Shown: positions 1 to 1,998 of the stretch, in pieces
Position numbering within the stretch: the first letter of the stretch is position 1
How the letters are laid out: the number at the start of each line of letters is the position of its first letter
From: Clostridia bacterium
GTDB taxonomy: Bacteria > Bacillota > Clostridia > Oscillospirales > CAG-272
Reading direction: 5' to 3'
NCBI GenBank assembly: GCA_017399145.1
Contig: JAFQEG010000003.1
Span: 1 to 50,552 of the forward strand
DNA length: 50,552 bases
Notes under the pieces: generated by a model
The model's input: only the letters and a program-made list of their open reading frames with translations
What the model was told of the DNA's origin: nothing
Databases searched by the model: none
Made by a program: the position numbers and the translations under genes

Positions 1-1998
<1,998 letters not shown>

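Follow-up and report, generated by a model that had tools for sequence, protein, structure and literature searches.

An in-frame amber codon in rpoC of a Clostridia draft genome is very probably a consensus error or minor variant

The window analysed here covers bases 1 to 50,552 of contig C5, which is 120,916 bases long and one of the 44 contigs of a Clostridia draft genome (G000) of 1.83 Mb (1,834,650 bases) that is 76.5% complete. At the beginning of this window, on the minus strand, lies rpoC, which encodes the RNA polymerase beta' subunit. Its reading frame starts from the ATG at 1974-1972, and the first 492 codons (499..1974) carry Rpb1 domains 1 and 2, as judged from the translation, the TIGR02386 profile and Pfam. 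Codon 493 (496..498) reads CTA on the plus strand and TAG on the minus strand, and occupies a site that is near-invariantly Gln in the loci of relatives. The frame then remains open for codons 494-658 (1..495), which carry Rpb1 domain 3 and end at the contig edge. Within this second part, the nearest candidate restart codon is the ATG at codon 495 (490..492), which lies 3 bases from the stop and is preceded, one base upstream, by the motif AGGA.

Profile searches identified both parts of the interrupted frame as RpoC. The 492 codons before the TAG matched TIGR02386 positions 1-485 (8.6e-267) and the 165 codons after it matched positions 487-640 (6.5e-37), with Pfam assigning Rpb1 domains 1 and 2 to the former and domain 3 to the latter. 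Contig C41 of the same draft genome begins with the remainder of the gene, which is open to its own stop codon, so that the two parts in the window together with the C41 part cover positions 1-485, 487-640 and 644-1146 of the 1147-position profile. None of these pieces reached on its own the cut-off of 963.5 bits set for the whole protein, as is to be expected of fragments. With relative G022 as guide, codon 658 is the last on C5, and C41 begins at the second base of codon 659, leaving one base missing and zero overlap at the junction. That two contigs should both end within rpoC and abut without overlapping is an odd kind of assembly break. A search of the genome's contigs for a strain duplicate or second copy of rpoC found none. 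The gene is therefore whole except for the TAG and the assembly break 495 bases further on, and two claims of the original prediction, that a TAG cuts rpoC at codon 493 and that the 165 codons downstream are open and clearly RpoC, are borne out.

To see what relatives encode at this position, we compared 100 rpoC loci, 19 from whole genomes (L002-L020) together with L037 and 80 named contigs (L075-L154), a set that may count some organisms twice. Gln was encoded in 95 of these loci (81 CAG and 14 CAA), the other five carrying Leu (two), Lys, Met and Arg (one each); a narrower pattern, with seven loci judged by eye, gave the same total for Gln. The site had been called invariant, which describes most relatives well and is too strong for the 5 of 100 that differ. 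No stop was present at codon 493 in any of the 100 loci, as would be expected of a draft error, and all 17 aligned members of the genus have Gln and no stop there. The four closest named loci, at 77-80% identity in RpoC, belong to metagenome-derived Clostridia genomes, of which three bear titles naming roe deer cecum, yak colon and sheep colon; judging by these sources, the organism is probably a gut member of the Clostridia. Elsewhere in the window, three neighbouring frames at 24211-26029 resemble, by eye, spoVAC, spoVAD and spoVAE, which suggests that the organism may be a spore former, and a protein encoded at 28001-28456 has a long run of Asp-Cys repeats followed by a zinc-ribbon-like CPHC...CPAC end, also recognised by eye.

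The closeness of the stop and the following ATG, only 3 bases apart, raises the question of whether translation could terminate at the TAG and re-initiate at 490-492, giving two beta' pieces that assemble as they do in cyanobacteria, in which rpoC is naturally split. Profiles for the cyanobacterial gamma and beta'' subunits both matched the rpoC pieces here, with low scores for the second piece. The position of the cut, however, does not correspond: in cyanobacteria it falls at the end of gamma, whereas TIGR02387, the gamma profile (619 positions), aligned up to position 504 before the TAG and continued beyond it from 506 to 570, placing the stop inside the gamma region. An AGGA one base from a start codon is also too close to serve as a ribosome site, in agreement with the earlier judgement that a restart at this ATG would lack a usable one, and none of the 17 aligned genus relatives has a stop here. 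We consider a two-piece beta' very improbable.

A second explanation is that TAG has been reassigned to Gln in this organism. The codon does sit at a Gln site of an essential gene, and code 15, in which TAG specifies Gln, is described for gut phages (PMC9523058, PMC10879173). We scanned 41 stretches of the genome, which with the window amount to 831,493 bases on 14 contigs (45% of the assembly), for stops flanked on either side by coding sequence, using codon usage trained on long frames in the first 435,263 bases. Coding frames of 150 codons or more numbered 452 in this sample and together held 192,394 codons. Of the 4,922 Gln codons in these frames, 2,841 (58%) would pass the stricter of the two threshold sets, and the listing itself was made with looser thresholds; the scan would thus overlook a sizeable share of isolated cases but would detect a change of code. 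Across these 831,493 bases and 452 frames, the TAG in rpoC was the only internal one found to be flanked by coding sequence, and on this ground reassignment was rejected. The tabulation of in-frame TAG at conserved Gln codons that had been proposed accordingly yields one case in 45% of the assembly. TAG ends 30 of the 445 coding frames that reach a stop when rpoC is included, or 29 of the other 444. The gene for RF1 (prfA) scores above its cut-off, contains no internal stop and retains the GGQ motif. In 18 of the 19 whole-genome loci the pattern found the site written CAG or CAA, and the 19th (L019), which the pattern missed, has Gln as well. Many internal TAG codons at Gln sites, a CUA tRNA and loss or change of RF1, all of which code 15 would lead one to expect, were not seen in the material searched. 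As in those phages, a TAG stands at a Gln site, but here in a cellular genome that has RF1, uses TAG as a normal stop and in which no suppressor tRNA was found. TAG is an ordinary stop codon in this genome, which contradicts the reassignment that had been listed among the options and reduces its probability to almost nothing. In the course of these searches, a second, weaker match of the prfB (RF2) type was recorded in 14 of the 24 genus members searched and none in G000, whose prfB most likely lies in the missing part of the genome; 11 of the 14 contain an in-frame TGA, which we assume may be the known prfB frameshift site.

With its looser thresholds, the scan also listed 30 other stops with coding sequence on both sides (29 TAA and 1 TGA). 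In 29 of these 30 positions a Met follows, by eye, within 25 codons of the stop, as expected of ordinary same-frame gene junctions. The exception is a TAA at C20:70527 (L168:10527-10529), which has no Met within 25 codons after it; the coding stretches on its two sides matched nothing in Pfam and gave a single NCBIfam hit, which was weak and partial. The protein there, which starts MKIRADFVTNSSSSSF and resembles one encoded on C17, possibly represents a broken gene or two genes. To look for interrupted rpoC genes more widely, we searched 394 genomes of the order, in 363 of which the gene was matched. Among the best 150 of these 363 matches, one genome besides G000 (G132) was reported with a stop in rpoC. 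Reading the locus confirmed a true internal TAA (G132:C6, L201; SDM-stop-IPTEK), so an isolated rpoC stop does occur in another genome of the order; six same-genus relatives of G132, fetched for comparison, have GAA (five) or GAG (one) at that site.

We then considered whether a real, fixed TAG could be read as Gln, either by an amber suppressor tRNA or by unusually strong first-base wobble of tRNA-Gln(CUG), to give enough full-length beta'. The site is one transition away from a Gln codon, and precedents exist: Gln insertion at UAG has been observed in recoded E. coli without RF1 (PMC6207430), and yeast tRNA-Gln(CUG) reads UAG through first-base wobble, the wild type doing so very inefficiently (PMC3664417). 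A further study (PMC7918605) makes the case that preserved frames containing in-frame stops are widespread among bacteria, and includes a TAG/CAG example. The assembly contains 29 tRNAs, both Gln tRNAs (TTG and CTG) among them, and none of the 29 in this 76.5%-complete assembly has the anticodon CTA. ARAGORN called no tRNA at any of four extra weak matches from a looser search (on C4, C18, C5 and C38), of which that on C4, which runs off the end of the contig, looks by eye like an incomplete tRNA with anticodon GAA. A first-base-wobble mutant of tRNA-Gln(CUG) was also sought and not seen: the tRNA sequence is identical in G000 and in the relatives G022, G021 and G015, all three of which carry CAG at the site in rpoC, and differs by one base in G018. 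The pattern for this tRNA missed 15 further loci (L213-L227); 14 of them, all except L227, were given to ARAGORN, which called a Gln tRNA (anticodon CTG) in 13 and, in L226, one for Arg.

The assembly's own tRNAs therefore do not support the efficient suppression that the original prediction had entertained, and the CTA anticodon it had asked for is absent from the 29 in this assembly. RF1 is intact, and readthrough by an efficient suppressor would affect the 29 other sampled frames terminated by TAG as well. Since the genome is about three quarters complete, a suppressor tRNA could still lie in the missing part. Reading of a genuine TAG as Gln is, overall, improbable, and the specific case of a fixed amber in rpoC served by natural, efficient Gln suppression from a tRNA in the unassembled quarter is a little more so.

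The explanation that we favour, and hold to be very probable, is that the TAG reflects an error in base calling or in the consensus, or else a variant, minor or non-viable, that entered the consensus. A single C-to-T base (G-to-A on the plus strand) in the consensus of a metagenome-type draft assembly would account for it, whether through a sequencing or assembly error or through a rare, non-viable or minor-strain molecule caught by the consensus. The population would then encode Gln at codon 493 and make a normal one-piece beta' subunit, and the TAG would not be used by the living organism. This is supported by the lone TAG in the scanned part, its use as a usual stop, the intact RF1 and the failure to find a UAG-reading tRNA among the 29 assembled, and by the fact that the assembly also breaks within rpoC, at C5/C41. 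Error and strain heterogeneity are thus the options from the original list that fit. Compared with G022, the nearest relative, the codons after the TAG comprise 122 that are the same, 36 synonymous and 7 changed, the corresponding counts before it being 366, 112 and 10, and comparisons with L003, L004 and L008 likewise put a greater share of changes in the part after the TAG. A comparison with L013 slipped out of register and was left aside. The constraint on the sequence after the stop fits a change that arose very lately or is not real; purifying selection there is equally expected under readthrough.

The rate at which errors produce stops can be estimated as well. Of random substitutions in the 111,378 codons sampled, 4.6% would make a stop, and of transitions 1.4%. 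If all substitutions are equally likely, an error rate of 1e-5 to 1e-4 per base would give 0.15 to 1.5 false stops. At draft quality a stray stop is unremarkable. Some observations nevertheless weigh against error. The change is a transition, of the class of which only 1.4% create stops, and the 496 bases that separate the TAG from the contig tip exceed the length of a typical short read. The rest of rpoC is also not rich in errors: at sites common to 17 genus members this genome has 2 other private changes in 654 aligned codons, and 7 of the 17 have more. A local cluster of errors around the TAG was likewise looked for and not seen, which speaks mildly against poor sequence quality. On balance, the TAG is genuine as part of the deposited sequence but most likely not of the organism, the base at codon 493 itself being most likely wrong or minor.

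Two sets of published cases offer a comparison. With the local base and assembly errors described in metagenome-assembled genomes (PMC7111523), the present locus shares isolated damage in otherwise sound coding sequence, a fragmented draft and a contig break in the same gene, with the difference that here the error is deduced from the sequence. With the prokaryotic genes that have in-frame stops and a preserved frame (PMC7918605), it shares TAG in place of CAG and constraint on both sides, but it differs in concerning one genome only and an essential single-copy gene.

When a draft genome shows a lone stop in an essential gene, this should not be equated with recoding unless reads support it, a caution underlined by the stop found in rpoC of one of the best 150 of 363 genomes besides this one. 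If the amber codon were true, expression of an essential gene would require readthrough, which would make a remarkable natural example of nonsense suppression in a bacterium with the standard code, and the supply of RNA polymerase in this organism would hinge on the reading of a stop codon.
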